This document shows, piece after piece, positions 42,321 to 49,593 of a DNA stretch of 64,000 nt. Made by a program: the position numbers and the translations under genes. The DNA is from Pseudanabaena galeata CCNP1313. Lineage in GTDB: Bacteria > Cyanobacteriota > Cyanobacteriia > Pseudanabaenales > Pseudanabaenaceae. Positions within the stretch are counted from its first letter, which is position 1. The number at the start of each line of letters is the position of its first letter. The stretch is taken from contig NZ_CP112874.1 of assembly GCF_029910235.1 (NCBI RefSeq), forward strand, positions 4,516,501-4,580,500. The letters run 5' to 3'. Below the pieces are notes generated by a model, which worked only from the letters and a program-made list of their open reading frames with translations, was not told the DNA's origin and did no database searches.

Positions 42321-42748
42321 ATCTCTTTTAGTAAACGCACATATTTAAATTACTGCATATTAATCACCAAATGACAGGGTGTAATCTAAAGTAAAGACTG
42401 GCGAATATTTTCTTTTGTTTTTTATATACATAAAACACGAGGTTGAGATGTTTTTTTTGAGACATCGCGCTATCAATATGCATCATCTCCAATCGTCCAT
42501 AATCAGCGATCGCCTTTTGTCATCATCAAGTGCGATCGCCTTGATAAATGCTAGAATCATCCGAAAGTTTCAGTAGTTGTCATGAACGATCGCGATCGCA
42601 CTAATATTCAGGGGTTTTTAGCTAAATGCCAAGGCTCATAGGGAAATGAACTATTAGATTTTTTAGCGAATAGTGTTTGGCTTTGCGTTTAGGATGTCCG
42701 ATTTTGAGTTATTTTAGAAGATATTCTTAAATATTAGGATAATCCTTA
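42321..42748. other. Intergenic region without recognised gene
   Basis: 428 bases between divergent glgB and the nuclease-like gene. It has several HIP1-type sites and a short GAGATG/CATCTC inverted pair near 42443-42489. I see no RNA gene or ORF of note. It must hold promoters for both sides. Confidence 0.5.
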
Positions 42749-43660
42749 ATGTATTCTGACAGACAGCTTGCAGCCAATCTCAATGAGGAAAATATTAATT
42801 ATTTACGGAATAAACATCGGGGAGGACAGGTTAATCAAAAGGGCAACTCATACGAAAACTTCTTTGCAATTTATCAAATAGCATTACTGGCAAAAGAAAT
42901 CATTAGTCAAGAAGTAGAAGACATTGATATTTTCAGCCAGATTGTGGCTTTCGTAGACGATCTGATTATTGATCGCGGAGTAGGCTTAGATTTACAGCAC
43001 TTCCAAATTAAAGAATCACAATCACTTTCATGGGGAACAGATAATAGCGATGTCAAAATTGCTTTTGATTTTAGGATGCAATTTCAACTCAACACAAATG
43101 CTCTCAATCGCTCATCTATAATGTCAGTCGTTGTTTCATCTGAAGATGTGGCTAAAAAATTAATTGCGAAAATGCCTATGGATATTCAGGCTTATAGCTC
43201 AGTAATTTTCTTCCCTTATCGAAAAACGATAAATGAATTATTGACAGTTAATAATCAACTGAGAGAAGCTATTTCCTATTTAACAGCTTTCGAGAATCCG
43301 ACGCAAGACAAAATCGAATGTGTTGCAACAGTTTTAATAGGCGCATGGGTATCTAGTGATACATCGCAAACTACTGTGCGTAATGTTCTGGAGAAAGCGC
43401 AAAACTGTCAACCATCCTTTATCCGTTCTTTTAAATCAGATGATTCATTTGCTCTTGAGCCAAAAGTTATCTCGATTCTACAAAGTATTAATGGATTTAC
43501 CTATTCTATTTCTAGAGGTTTTTTCCATTGGGAATATCCAGTGCTAGGAATGGATGGTACATATCCTATCAGTCTTGAGAGTGAAGAGTTTCAAAAATTA
43601 CAGAATCTTATTCTGCAAATAAGCCCTACGACATTTGAAGATTTAGAAAATTTGCTTTAG
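42749..43660 (+). CDS. Putative nuclease-like protein (Cap4/DUF4297-like N-terminal region)
   Basis: 303 residues, not firmly recognised. The N-terminal half reads HRGGQVNQKGNSYENFFAIY, then QIVAFVDDLIIDR and LDLQHFQIKESQSLSWG. The GG.x.KG..YE start plus D...Q-x-K core is like the PD-(D/E)XK domain of defence nucleases of the Cap4/DUF4297 kind. The C-terminal half (about 130-303) matches nothing I know. No membrane helix. It is followed without a gap by a PRTase-like gene. Activity and target are inference. Confidence 0.6.
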   Translation: MYSDRQLAANLNEENINYLRNKHRGGQVNQKGNSYENFFAIYQIALLAKEIISQEVEDIDIFSQIVAFVDDLIIDRGVGLDLQHFQIKESQSLSWGTDNSDVKIAFDFRMQFQLNTNALNRSSIMSVVVSSEDVAKKLIAKMPMDIQAYSSVIFFPYRKTINELLTVNNQLREAISYLTAFENPTQDKIECVATVLIGAWVSSDTSQTTVRNVLEKAQNCQPSFIRSFKSDDSFALEPKVISILQSINGFTYSISRGFFHWEYPVLGMDGTYPISLESEEFQKLQNLILQISPTTFEDLENLL

Positions 43661-43661
43661 G

Positions 43662-44435
43662 TTGTACAAATTCTTGGGAGAGTCTATACTCAAGGTAATA
43701 TTTACAAAAAATCAAGCGATCGCAACCGTGTCTAGAAAGTACACACAATTTGCTGGAGACAAGGAAAAAGCGCTACTCGACGCTCTTGCTGACAAGGGTA
43801 GCAGCATTGATTACTATCGGCAAAGTATGTATCAACTAGGAGAAAGTCTGGCAGGCGCTGTTTTATCGCAGATTGTTAGTAACTCAAGTTCGGCACATTT
43901 AGCTTGTACGGCTGAAGATGCTGATTTTCTTGCCAAAGGAATTCTTAGCAGATTGGATGGTACTCTTGCCAAGGTTACTTTTTCTTGCTTTTGGAATAAA
44001 AGGTTTAAGCCTTTTGGCATTGCCGATCTACAGGTTGCTCCTATTTTAAAGCGTTATCTCGAACCATCAGATGCTCAAGTAGATAGCTTGATTATCGTTA
44101 AGTCGATTATTTCAGGGGCTTGTGTTGTGCGTACTAACTTGATTGACACGATCGCAAGGATATCACCAAAACAAATATTTATCGTTGCACCTGTTATTTA
44201 TCAAGGGGCGGAGGATCGTTTAAAAAAAGGATTTTCTGAGCATATTTATAACAAGTTTCGGTATGTGTACTTAGCTGAGGATGATGTAAAAACGCCTGAA
44301 GGAATTATTGTTCCGGGAATTGGGGGTGAGGTTTATGTTCGTCTTGGTTTTGATTCGCAAGATGATAAAAATCGTTCTACTCCTGAGTTAGTCAGGCAAA
44401 GACGGTTAGCTATTTCTCAGCGTCAACTTGCGTAG
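43662..44435 (+). CDS. Phosphoribosyltransferase-like protein (degenerate UPRTase-type)
   Basis: Up to 257 residues; no ATG at the front. The frame opens with TTG at 43662, one base after the upstream stop, and other starts (for example GTG at 43728) are possible. The C-terminal half reads QIFIVAPVIYQGAEDRLKKG, then YVYLAEDD, TPEGIIVPGIGGEVYVRLGF, close in layout to uracil phosphoribosyltransferase (VAAPEG..., D..LN..GYIVPGLGDAGDR). The PRPP loop is altered (VKSIISGACVV instead of DPMLATGGT), so ordinary PRTase catalysis is doubtful. Translation is probably coupled to the nuclease-like gene. Confidence 0.6.
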   Translation: MYKFLGESILKVIFTKNQAIATVSRKYTQFAGDKEKALLDALADKGSSIDYYRQSMYQLGESLAGAVLSQIVSNSSSAHLACTAEDADFLAKGILSRLDGTLAKVTFSCFWNKRFKPFGIADLQVAPILKRYLEPSDAQVDSLIIVKSIISGACVVRTNLIDTIARISPKQIFIVAPVIYQGAEDRLKKGFSEHIYNKFRYVYLAEDDVKTPEGIIVPGIGGEVYVRLGFDSQDDKNRSTPELVRQRRLAISQRQLA

Positions 44436-44495: not shown

Positions 44496-46127
44496 TTAAC
44501 CTTCTAGCTTTTTAATACGGCTTAGTACATCATTGTAATCATCTATTTTTCCTTGAAGTTGATAAAGTCGTGCCGCCTCTCGAAAATCTGTTAAAGCTTC
44601 TTTTTTTTGCTTTAGATGTTGGTAAACGATTCCACGATTCAAATAAGCCACAGTATAGCTAGGTCTGATATCAATTGCCTTACTATAATCGGATATAGCA
44701 GACTGACTGGCTCCACTTTTCAATCTTATATTCCCTCTCTCAACATATGCCTTGGCATAGTTAGGTTTAAGACGCATAGCATTGGTATAAGCTGCCGTAG
44801 CTCCTATTTCATCTTCTTTTTTTAACTTGATTTTCCCAAGCTCATAGTAAACATCTGCATAGTTAGGATTTATACGAATTGCTTCGTTATAGTCCGAGAT
44901 AGCTTTATCTGTATCACCTAACTCGTTCATAATTATTCCACGAGCTCGATATGCAGCAACATAGTTAGGGTTAATTTCAATAGCTTTAGTAAGATCGTCA
45001 ATTGCACCCTGCTTATCATCCAATCCAGATTTAGCAATCGCTCTACCGTGATATGCTTCGGCTGTGGAAATAGGGAATAAGGCAATAGCTTTCTTTAAAT
45101 CTTTTTTAGCATTAGTCTCATCATTTATTAACTTGAAAGCTCTTGCTCTTCCTGCGTAAGCGATTATGTAATCAGGCTTAAGTTGAATTGCTTCAGTATA
45201 TTTAGAGATTGCAATTTCATAATCTCCATGTGATTGTTGTTCATATGCTTGGTTAAAAAGATCTTCAGCAGAAAATATTTTGTCCAAGCTTTTTAAAGCA
45301 TCCAAAATTTGTTGTGCTGTCCATCTTTCAATATGATTTTTTTGCAAACATCCATTTGCAATTTCTATCCATTCATCAGGCACACCATCAAGATCGATAG
45401 GTTCTTTTTGAATATTTGTACTAGTGATTGGATCTTTAATAGGATGATGCCCCGCAAGCATCTCAACTATCATTACTCCTAATGCCCATATATCTCCTTT
45501 CGTCGATATCCACTGTCTTTCAAAGATTTCTGGCGGCATATAACGATCTGTACCACCAATCAGAGTCGCTTGCACTGAGCCTTTATTAAGAAACTTAGCA
45601 AAACCAAAATCAGCCATTTTCCATTTTTTACCAACTTTGATAACATTTGCTGGCTTAAGATCTCGATGGGTCAGTTGTTCAGGAGGAGTGAGTTCGCTAC
45701 CACCATGTACCTTGCTATGCATATAACACAATCCTTCAGCTACAGATAGAACTATCTCCTTTACCTCATCTGAACTTAGTACTTGTCTATCTTTCCTATA
45801 GCTATCTAGACAATATTCTCCAAGTTCCATAACTAGATAAAGCATAGGGAAATCATTAATTTTCACTTGCCCCCAATTAAAATGTTGGATAAGGCTGTCG
45901 TGCGAAGGTAAACTCAGCGCAGATTTAAGTTCACAGTGCTGCATACCTCCCACACCACCATCCTGCATTAGTTTAACGGCAACTTGTTTTTGCAACGTAT
46001 GCCCTAACACAATCATCTTTGCCTGAAATACCCCACCAAAACTACCTGAACCAATCAGCTTTTCCAAACTATACCTATCGTCAATAGTCTTACCAACACA
46101 TGCCTCCCAGAAATTTTTATTTTGCAT
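44496..46127 (-). CDS. Serine/threonine protein kinase with C-terminal TPR repeats
   Basis: 543 residues. Kinase domain 15-285: GSGSFGGVFQAKM (P-loop), VAVKLM (ATP lysine), HRDLKPANV (catalytic loop), MADFGFAKF (DFG), GTDRYMPPEIF and DIWALGVMIVEMLAGHHP. From about 292 to 540 there are seven TPRs of the NPNYA.AY..RG type. No transmembrane segment, so cytoplasmic. It is convergent with the nuclease/PRTase pair. A role in signalling with bound partner proteins is likely; substrates unknown. Confidence 0.92.
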   Translation of the reverse strand: MQNKNFWEACVGKTIDDRYSLEKLIGSGSFGGVFQAKMIVLGHTLQKQVAVKLMQDGGVGGMQHCELKSALSLPSHDSLIQHFNWGQVKINDFPMLYLVMELGEYCLDSYRKDRQVLSSDEVKEIVLSVAEGLCYMHSKVHGGSELTPPEQLTHRDLKPANVIKVGKKWKMADFGFAKFLNKGSVQATLIGGTDRYMPPEIFERQWISTKGDIWALGVMIVEMLAGHHPIKDPITSTNIQKEPIDLDGVPDEWIEIANGCLQKNHIERWTAQQILDALKSLDKIFSAEDLFNQAYEQQSHGDYEIAISKYTEAIQLKPDYIIAYAGRARAFKLINDETNAKKDLKKAIALFPISTAEAYHGRAIAKSGLDDKQGAIDDLTKAIEINPNYVAAYRARGIIMNELGDTDKAISDYNEAIRINPNYADVYYELGKIKLKKEDEIGATAAYTNAMRLKPNYAKAYVERGNIRLKSGASQSAISDYSKAIDIRPSYTVAYLNRGIVYQHLKQKKEALTDFREAARLYQLQGKIDDYNDVLSRIKKLEG

Positions 46128-46189: not shown

Positions 46190-46352
46190 CTCGCGATCGC
46201 AACAACCGATCGCCCAATTTAAAAATGGTAGCCGCTATAAAAATGCAATTTCAGAAAACCTCGAACGCCTAGAATGGTTCGGCATCCTGCACTGCCATCA
46301 AGAAGCACAAATCAAATACTGGCAACACATCGAAACACAACAGGCAAGTTAA
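46190..46352 (+). pseudogene. Possible 3' gene remnant
   Basis: An open frame without a plausible start gives about 50 residues, including NGSRYKNAISENLERLEWFG and KYWQHIETQQAS before a stop. It has protein-like composition but no family I know. A short related string, GAATGGTTCG, recurs at 46604. Probably the tail of a lost gene. Confidence 0.3.
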
Positions 46353-48194: not shown

Positions 48195-48767
48195 TTAATC
48201 AAATTTCACGCGCTTGTACAAATCTTGTAACCTGATCTCTAAATGCATTGATGTCAATTTAATTACAGCTTCTTTTCCCTTATGGGTCATCAATACCCAT
48301 CTATTCTCTGACTCCTTGACGTAGTGATCAACTTCATAGCCATGTTGACAAACTAAAATATATTCCTGAAAAGTAGGAATAGAGCGATATTGACGAAATT
48401 TACTATCATGATCATAGGTTTGGGTGGAGTTGGATAGAATTTCCACAATCAAACAGGGATTAGTAACTTCCATCTGTTTTTGATCAACAAAAACTGGTTC
48501 ACCTGCGACAACCATCACATCAGGATAGGTATAACGATTATATTCAGGTATCCATAGCCGCATATCGCTCATGAAGACTGAATATTCTAGATCTTCCAAA
48601 GCTAACAAAAGAAGAGCGTGAAACTTACCTGTCAGAATATTGTGATTTGCAGAAGCGCCTGCCATAGAAATAATTTCTCCATTAATAAATTCACTCTTAA
48701 ATTCCGCTTTTTCTTCTAAGGCTAAATATTCTGATGCGGTATATCGCTTTGTAGCTGCTAAAACCAT
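48195..48767 (-). CDS. Uma2/DUF820 family protein (putative PD-(D/E)XK endonuclease)
   Basis: 190 residues. YTASEYLALEEKAEFKSEF, INGEIISMAGASANHN, RYTYPDVMVVAGEP, LIVEILSNSTQTYDHDSKF and YRSIPTFQEYILV give the complete Uma2 pattern with its Asp, Glu and Lys. Similar in layout to the gene at 18413. It is divergent from the methylase fragment. Confidence 0.85.
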   Translation of the reverse strand: MVLAATKRYTASEYLALEEKAEFKSEFINGEIISMAGASANHNILTGKFHALLLLALEDLEYSVFMSDMRLWIPEYNRYTYPDVMVVAGEPVFVDQKQMEVTNPCLIVEILSNSTQTYDHDSKFRQYRSIPTFQEYILVCQHGYEVDHYVKESENRWVLMTHKGKEAVIKLTSMHLEIRLQDLYKRVKFD

Positions 48768-48844
48768 ATGCGATCGCCTCCTAAAAATTGACCATTGGCA
48801 AGATTATAACTAATCGCGATCTCCCGCAATGTAAAATCGGTACA

Positions 48845-49102
48845 ATGTCCACCAACACAGCCGATCTCGGTTTCTTTGTCACTCTTGCTGAACCTATCAA
48901 AGCGATGATCACCGAGGCAAACAAAGCAGGATTCTATCGCGCCGCCAATGGCAAAGACTATTCCCGCGTCCAAATTTTCACCATCGAAGACTTACTTTCA
49001 GGAGCCAAGAAACCCGAATATCTCGATCTCAGCCTCGGCGACATCAACTTCAAACGCGCCGAAAAAGAAAGCGTAGTTGTCTCACAAAAAGAGTTATTTT
49101 AA
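48845..49102 (+). pseudogene. 3' fragment of a DNA methyltransferase gene
   Basis: 85 residues from the ATG at 48845; an earlier in-frame start at 48788 is possible. GFFVTLAEPIKAMITEANKA, then GKDYSRVQIFTIEDLLSG and LSLGDINFKRA match the end of large site-specific adenine methyltransferases (VTLEEPTKPM...AG.Y...PRIQILTI..LL.G). The methylase core (DPPY, FxGxG) is absent and the region upstream is another gene, so this is a stranded tail. Confidence 0.6.
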
Positions 49103-49120
49103 TTATTTATACACACTATT

Positions 49121-49267
49121 ATGTCTAGACGCGATACCTTACATTTTGCATTACGCCGAACTCTTGAAAAAGATGGATGGACTATTACTGTTGTTCAACG
49201 CAATACAATTAATTTATTAGTCTATGAACCCGATCAGGAGGTAATTACCCAATGGATACAACACTAA
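49121..49267 (+). pseudogene. xisH: xisH with internal deletion
   Basis: 48 codons. The first 23 (MSRRDTLHFALRRTLEKDGW, then TIT) match the start of XisH, and the last 20 (NTINLLVYEPDQEVITQWIQ) match its end. The roughly 90-residue middle, with the PD-(D/E)XK-like core (AVEVKSF), is gone and the frame is kept. XisH with XisI was named for control of fdxN-element excision in Anabaena; most copies have unknown roles. It overlaps xisI by 16 bases. Confidence 0.75.
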
Positions 49268-49593
49268 CTTATGCTGAAATACTTAAAAAGACCGTGAACG
49301 ATGCAACCATTCATCAACCAAGCATACAAGCGATCAAACTATATCCTGTTTGTGATCTTGAGTCTGGTCAATTTGTTGTTCTTGCCACAGGTTTTGACAA
49401 ACAAAAATGGATGGACTTTGTACTATTTCATGCGCGACTTATCGAAAAAGATAACTGCGATCGCCAAATCATCATCGAAGAAGATAACTTTGAGGAAGGA
49501 TTAGTTAATACCCTCATCGAAGCAGGAATCAAAAAAGAAGATATCGTCACCAGTTTGACCTCTAATAGTTATTCTACTGGTTTACAAAGATGA
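49252..49593 (+). CDS. xisI: XisI family protein
   Basis: 113 residues, normal XisI length: YAEILKKTVND, then VCDLESGQFVVLATGFDK, VLFHARLIEKDNCDRQIIIE and FEEGLVNTLIEAGIKKEDIV. It partners XisH, whose gene here is internally deleted, so XisI may now lack its partner. Ends at a bidirectional terminator shared with gltA. Confidence 0.9.
   Translation: MDTTLTYAEILKKTVNDATIHQPSIQAIKLYPVCDLESGQFVVLATGFDKQKWMDFVLFHARLIEKDNCDRQIIIEEDNFEEGLVNTLIEAGIKKEDIVTSLTSNSYSTGLQR

Follow-up and report, generated by a model that had tools for sequence, protein, structure and literature searches.

A conserved cyanobacterial gene pair of a Cap4-like putative nuclease and a degenerate uracil phosphoribosyltransferase-like protein: a possible mobile toxin-antitoxin-like module

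In the 64,000-nt stretch of Pseudanabaena galeata CCNP1313 DNA analysed here (the window), two genes of the forward strand form a cassette. The upstream gene (42749..43660, +) encodes a 303-aa nuclease-like protein, NUC, with Cap4/DUF4297-like N-terminal motifs, and the downstream gene (43728..44435, +) encodes PRT, a 235-aa degenerate uracil phosphoribosyltransferase (UPRTase)-like protein whose GTG start is deduced from relatives. By the coordinates of both genes they are separated by 67 bases (43661..43727). A reading of the window from sequence alone (hereafter the sequence-only reading) had let the second gene start one base after the first, and a TTG codon at 43662 does open the longest PRT reading frame (257 aa). 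The 22 extra residues gained in this way are absent from the relatives, which start at a conserved M-[ST]-R that corresponds in their alignment to GTG 43728 of the window. This points to GTG 43728 rather than TTG 43662 as the most likely start, with a 235-aa protein and 67 bases between the genes, and the one-base spacing had to be abandoned. Overlap of the two genes is nevertheless frequent: of the 12 intact pairs that do not belong to the window's family, 11 share 4 bases between the genes and the twelfth has a 6-base gap, whereas within that family the genes do not overlap and lie 67 to 142 bases apart. The predicted RNA fold across 43641-43760 was unremarkable (z 0.10), and promoter and terminator scans gave no excess over shuffled sequences.

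The cassette lies within a gutted restriction gene. The first 27 codons (42582..42662, +) and the last 46 codons (46212..46349, +) of an MmeI-type IIG restriction-modification gene enclose the pair together with a Ser/Thr kinase-TPR gene (44496..46127, −), which belongs to the same block and stands outside the conserved cassette. The kinase-TPR neighbour and a methylase fragment, both suspected before, are real. An intact 1193-aa copy of the MmeI-type gene is located near glgB in another genome (G117, locus L174). The arrangement seen in the window, with the kinase-TPR gene beside the pair, is repeated at locus L002, and DNA similarity to three further family loci (L003, L089, L090) ends before the kinase-TPR gene. 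In genome G144 the 5′ remnant of the MmeI-type gene and the pair are found at another place than in the window. This 1.9-kb block is 96% identical between the window and G144, compared with 86% for the glgB regions of the two genomes, which points to recent transfer; the surroundings of glgB have the look of a hotspot where accessory genes are swapped. Further downstream of the pair, the stretch 48195-49593 contains a gene for a putative nuclease of the Uma2 type and, for the xisH suspected before, a XisI gene was found at 49252-49593. An ORF at 48788-49102, with no Pfam match, was judged by eye to be a possible methylase fragment.

We searched 388 cyanobacterial genomes with a profile of each protein. 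NUC matches were obtained in 20 of them, with an intact full-length gene in 14, and PRT matches in 26, full-length in 20 (the gene of a 21st, G071, is cut near a contig end). Every one of the 14 intact NUC genes is adjoined by an intact PRT, the one gene found next to all of them among neighbours that were identified in part. The pair is a conserved unit, and pairing in other genomes, named in advance by the sequence-only reading as a condition of its proposal, was found for every intact NUC. It is also mobile. Further intact pairs are carried by a Chroococcidiopsis plasmid and by a phage-like IMG/VR contig (L045), and a 10-kb Geminocystis plasmid equals contig C7 of genome G350 in length and gene positions. 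In the window's own genus, NUC occurs in 4 of 25 genomes and is broken in one of these. A tblastn search of 72,556 plasmids matched two records, both cyanobacterial; weak non-cyanobacterial plasmid rows with E values of 2 to 3 were discarded as chance. No relatives of the pair were detected in 50,697 phage records, IMG/VR scans with NUC queries returned L045 only, and in a phylum sample of 194 genomes the 7 with a match all belonged to the window's class. A contig scan with peptides of the window protein was sensitive to close relatives only. Overall, the plasmid, phage and phylum searches, with thin coverage of other bacterial phyla, yielded no pair outside Cyanobacteriota.

The two genes share their history. 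When 17 pairs were compared, including one whose NUC is broken, the pairwise distances of NUC and PRT were strongly correlated (r 0.924, a value equalled in 0 of 9999 permutations). The correlation persisted in the 12 pairs outside the window's family (r 0.74; equalled in 5 of 9999 permutations). Median identity amounted to 54% for PRT vs. 45% for NUC. Between the window and L002 the dN/dS values of 0.18 for NUC and 0.09 for PRT fit purifying selection on both genes.

The 303-aa NUC contains the elements RGG..NQKG.SYE, VDD and QIK. In the GG..NQKG.SYE motif (42821..42856, +), residues G25, G26, K31, G32 and E36 are strictly conserved in all 14 family members. The same holds for the stretch from the acidic DD at residues 70-71 to Q86-x-K88 (42956..43012, +), a putative PD-(D/E)xK core in which D70, D71, Q86 and K88 do not vary. 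The GG..KG..YE start and the D plus QxK noticed by the sequence-only reading are hence present and invariant, and all 14 members display the active-site arrangement GG...G...Y(E/Q), acidic residue, QxK. When NUC was compared by hhalign with six cyanobacterial Cap4 (PF14130) proteins, GG..KG..YE, DDL and QxK came into register. Whole profiles gave a score of 26.6 and P 0.012, but a probability of only 3.5%; unrelated control profiles scored 13.7 and 16.3. For the N-terminal parts the score was 24.8 (P 0.0016, probability 15.9%), a value reached by 0 of 200 column-shuffled decoys, the best of which attained 22.3. In a run of the Cap4 profile over 691 reading frames, from which one Cap4-overlapping frame was excluded, NUC members occupied 10 of the 18 top rows outside Cap4 genes; NUC accounted for 18 of the 691 frames, and these are not mutually independent. 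The reverse search with the NUC profile recovered one of the six Cap4 proteins, with an E value of 7.9 and among chance rows.

Library searches gave little further information on NUC. The window protein did not match PF14130 (Pfam gathering cut-off 26.2 bits), one of the 14 members did so with an E value of 0.065, below the Pfam threshold, and a PF14130 search of NUC's own genome gave no match. Apart from a chance row, Pfam returned nothing for the window NUC; there was no convincing match in NCBIfam, PADLOC or PHROGs, and none in the PDB by sequence or by profile. Likewise, the C-terminal half had no match in the libraries searched. An AlphaFold model built from a four-row alignment had a mean pLDDT of 43, too poor for fold assignment. 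Because the profile similarity is weak and the reverse search recovered a single Cap4 protein, we call NUC Cap4-like and not a Cap4 member; judged by its motifs, it is probably a Cap4-like nuclease. The nuclease proposed earlier is favoured by the motifs and the weak Cap4 similarity.

The AlphaFold model of PRT (pLDDT 70.9, pTM 0.74) retrieved, among the best 20 Foldseek rows (E 1.6e-7 to 5.8e-5), 15 UPRTases, yeast Fur1p and four entries with gene-code titles only. In the VIA comparison the model reached Z values of 17.2 to 13.6 for the UPRTase block vs. 10.1 for the best other PRTase. The PRT family profile matched the Sulfolobus UPRTase in the PDB (E 5.5e-5) and was similar to 11 cyanobacterial UPRTase-family proteins (P 3.7e-7, probability 93%). 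Both structure prediction and profile comparison favour a UPRTase fold, and the predicted model falls where the sequence-only reading had put the protein. In direct searches the window PRT had no match to the Pfam UPRTase model PF14681 at E 1, no convincing match in Pfam, NCBIfam, PADLOC or PHROGs and none in the PDB by sequence, and only 3 of 19 PRT members matched PF14681, the best with an E value of 0.00065.

What PRT appears to have lost is the catalytic site. At the place of the UPRTase PRPP loop, (E/D)PM(M/L)ATG.S, the alignment shows KSIISGACVV in the window (44100..44129, +) and KS[IV]IS[GS][AG]CVV in 19 of 19 aligned members, so the altered loop noted earlier as VKSIISGACVV is a property of the whole group. 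The PRPP motif (D/E)P..ATG is found in none of the 19 PRTs vs. 10 of 11 control UPRTase-family proteins; L129, the control row lacking UPRTase motifs, is a divergent UPRTase relative. The RAG of the pyrophosphate loop, present in 10 of 11 controls, is absent from 18 of 19 PRTs, and the one in L014 lies near the N-terminus, elsewhere than the pyrophosphate loop. An E-D-x-D, invariant in 19 of 19 members (EDAD in the window, with E63, D64 and D66; 43914..43925, +), replaces it as judged by eye in a region of uncertain alignment. From the base loop PGLGDAGDR, PRT has kept PG[IV]GG and the following Arg, the window's PGIGG (44313..44327, +) being a remnant of the uracil loop PGLGD. The genome also has an ordinary UPRTase gene at another locus (G000:C1:611430-612053), which means that PRT is not its sole salvage enzyme. 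With the PRPP loop replaced in 19 of 19 members, PRT is probably no working enzyme but a degenerate, catalytically dead UPRTase, and the earlier suggestion that it might modify a nucleotide becomes unlikely because the PRPP loop is gone.

The same replacement weighs against PRT acting as an effector, or as an enzyme of changed activity that produces a signal or alters a nucleotide. Such a role would have a parallel in DprA-PRTase defence systems and retrons, of which PRTase proteins are the proposed effectors according to PMC9122126. Moreover, the strict conservation of KSIISGACVV implies that the site still does something. Yet survival of PRT where NUC is broken or lost, as seen in the genomes described below, is not what one would expect if PRT were toxic, and we consider this explanation quite improbable.

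The two genes are not lost equally. Among the 20 full-length PRTs of the 388 genomes, 14 stand beside an intact NUC, 4 beside a broken one and 2 without any NUC trace, whereas no intact NUC without PRT was found (one-sided sign test, 6 vs. 0: p 0.016 or 1/64, kinship among genomes being ignored). The breaks differ: there is an internal stop in G144 (for its NUC, dN 0.0127, dS 0.0776, w 0.16) and in G161, G143 retains only the C-terminal part, split by a transposase gene, and G006 a 65-aa C-terminal remnant. Near the PRTs of G046 and G326 no NUC trace was detected within the 19.5 kb examined; in G046 a PIN-domain gene (L099:8836-9249) lies directly upstream of the solo PRT. NUC fragments without PRT on the stretch examined were seen at three places (G338:C11, G243, G242), and five genomes contain PRT fragments only (G216, G168, G017, G303, G260). 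The PRT of G143 showed a dN/dS of 0.28 against that of G087, which is weaker constraint than between the window and L002.

Phage-like contigs repeat the pattern. L045 carries the full pair with a phage tail gene downstream. In L043, L044 and L046, PRT and the downstream DNA are 100% identical to L045, and NUC is reduced to its last nine codons, which follow a tRNA-Tyr gene; L047 has the same junction with seven NUC codons kept and diverged flanking DNA (tRNA-Tyr and last NUC codons, then intact PRT: L043:7869-8001, L047:765-897). Identification of the tail gene comes from L043 and L045; in the other contigs it was recognised by its shared start. With 0 synonymous and 3 non-synonymous differences between L043 and L047, the solo PRT offers too few changes for a verdict on selection.

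One-sided loss of this kind would fit a toxin with a harmless partner, and it would fit a separate second role of PRT as well. It is unexpected if PRT is an activator or obligate subunit that senses infection, with both proteins needed for cutting, as for HerA, the partner of the DUF4297 nuclease according to PMC11291478. The obligate pairing, gene overlap and shared history fit such a co-complex. However, 6 of the 20 genomes with a full-length PRT have no intact NUC, and neither do four phage-like contigs, so that we regard an activating PRT as rather unlikely.

To describe the genomic surroundings, 148 of 162 neighbouring ORFs were scanned with PADLOC, 8 window ORFs, three DruE-like helicases and three other long ORFs having been dropped. 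As controls served 148 of 180 ORFs (those >1300 aa were left out) from 18 other regions of pair- or PRT-carrying genomes; the control ORF L130 consisted entirely of N, which leaves 147 effective controls. The neighbours matched 260 PADLOC families vs. 113 for the controls, in a count where a single methylase or specificity subunit matches many models. Among the matches listed, type I R-M, type IIG and mad2-like rows came from the neighbours, a CRISPR locus and a pAgo from the control regions. Since one subunit can match many models and the controls include a CRISPR locus and pAgo, we claim no enrichment, and none is clear over other regions of the same genomes. The solo PRT of G326 adjoins type I R-M genes. 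For the conflict system proposed by the sequence-only reading the support is contextual: the gutted restriction gene, the contigs with phage tail genes, some DruE-like and type I R-M neighbours and the one-sided loss are in its favour, whereas the PADLOC comparison is indecisive.

Ordinary genes occur beside the pair too, for instance a solute-binding protein gene and an amino-acid-kinase-family gene. Together with a NUC that has no confident library match or usable model, they would suit a pair in which NUC is no nuclease and which serves as an accessory module outside defence, such as a nucleotide-regulated protein. The in-register GG/E/D/QxK elements shared with Cap4, at a score that no column-shuffled decoy attained, argue against it, as do the gutted restriction gene and the phage-tail contexts, and we find this account distinctly unlikely.

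DruE-like helicases of ~1,700 aa (L084:1858-7182, L020:9772-14817, L098:11220-16295), two of which were shown to carry an MZB zinc domain, lie next to the pair in G087 and in the Chroococcidiopsis plasmid; in G143 the neighbours are PRT and what remains of NUC. Such adjacency raises the idea that the pair might form the front part of a larger system that includes a DruE helicase. By tblastn the helicase was found in only 3 of 21 pair or PRT stretches (vs. 0 of 18 other regions). Its relatives with at least 57% identity numbered 18 (two incomplete) in 204 genomes, and NUC or PRT lay within flanks of ~1.5 kb in only 2 of them (G087, G143). On these counts the larger system is very improbable, and a DruE three-gene system was set aside. 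The gene preceding the helicase ends in [YF]VGCSRAM plus ~20 residues in 8 of 22 loci and resembles, by eye, a UvrD-like helicase.

The designation of the pair as undescribed was borne out in Pfam, NCBIfam, PADLOC, PHROGs and the open-access literature searched, in which it has no name and no description was found. A related system may be drawn in PMC13092281 (DefensePredictor), one figure of which names a PRTase among the systems it predicts. No paper on the family name 'PRTase-CE' was found in the open-access literature. With the HerA-DUF4297 complex and Cap4 of CBASS the pair shares a Cap4-like PD-(D/E)xK nuclease, as suggested by motifs and weak profile similarity, and a dedicated partner; that partner is the HerA ATPase or a CD-NTase there and a degenerate UPRTase here. 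CBASS Cap4 systems are further marked by a SAVED domain. It resembles the DprA-PRTase (ShosTA-like) systems in comprising two genes, one with a PRTase fold, at phage-associated accessory loci. In those systems, according to PMC9122126, the role of effector is proposed for the PRTase and DprA homologues serve as antitoxins, whereas PRT has no PRPP motif and persists where NUC is lost. The conserved partner in the 388 genomes is NUC and not DprA. Compared with the upp UPRTase, PRT shares the predicted fold, the N-terminal region and the PG.G base loop, and differs in its replaced PRPP loop and in the pyrophosphate-loop RAG, which was not found at its place.

In organisation the pair also resembles type II toxin-antitoxin modules, likewise small mobile two-gene units with often overlapping genes. 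Their trait of two adjacent, co-transmitted genes, with the partner kept while the putative toxin is intact, is found here. On the other hand, the libraries searched gave no match of NUC or PRT to a family of toxins or antitoxins, and both are large for type II modules. PRT is also more conserved than NUC, whereas antitoxins often evolve faster than toxins. In addition, a PRT that has a function of its own would account for the one-sided loss as well, and the window's family lacks the gene overlap.

Taking these points together, we tentatively propose, at a likelihood just short of evenly balanced, that the pair is a mobile two-gene toxin-antitoxin-like or controlled-effector defence module in which PRT is the dedicated partner of NUC and holds a Cap4-like nuclease inactive. 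NUC would be a Cap4-like PD-(D/E)xK nuclease. PRT, a presumed former UPRTase without the PRPP loop (and, by eye, without the pyrophosphate loop) that has partly kept its base-binding loop, would probably bind NUC and keep it inactive. A cue, which may be a change in a nucleotide or base or damage by a phage, would then release NUC, and the role of the module would be phage defence. The dead-enzyme site suggests a small-molecule cue. In a bolder and, in our estimate, unlikely version of this proposal, the dead UPRTase would be a ligand-sensing inhibitor that monitors a pyrimidine base or nucleotide perturbed in phage infection and frees the Cap4-like nuclease, while some cyanophages, having deleted NUC, would keep PRT alone as a stolen immunity gene blunting the host system.

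If the proposal is true, a metabolic enzyme stripped of catalysis would be a new kind of partner in nuclease-based bacterial immunity, and nucleotide sensing would be tied to DNA cleavage in a small two-gene system that is directly testable in common laboratory strains. The phage contigs with PRT alone suggest that a counter-defence may already be ready-made.
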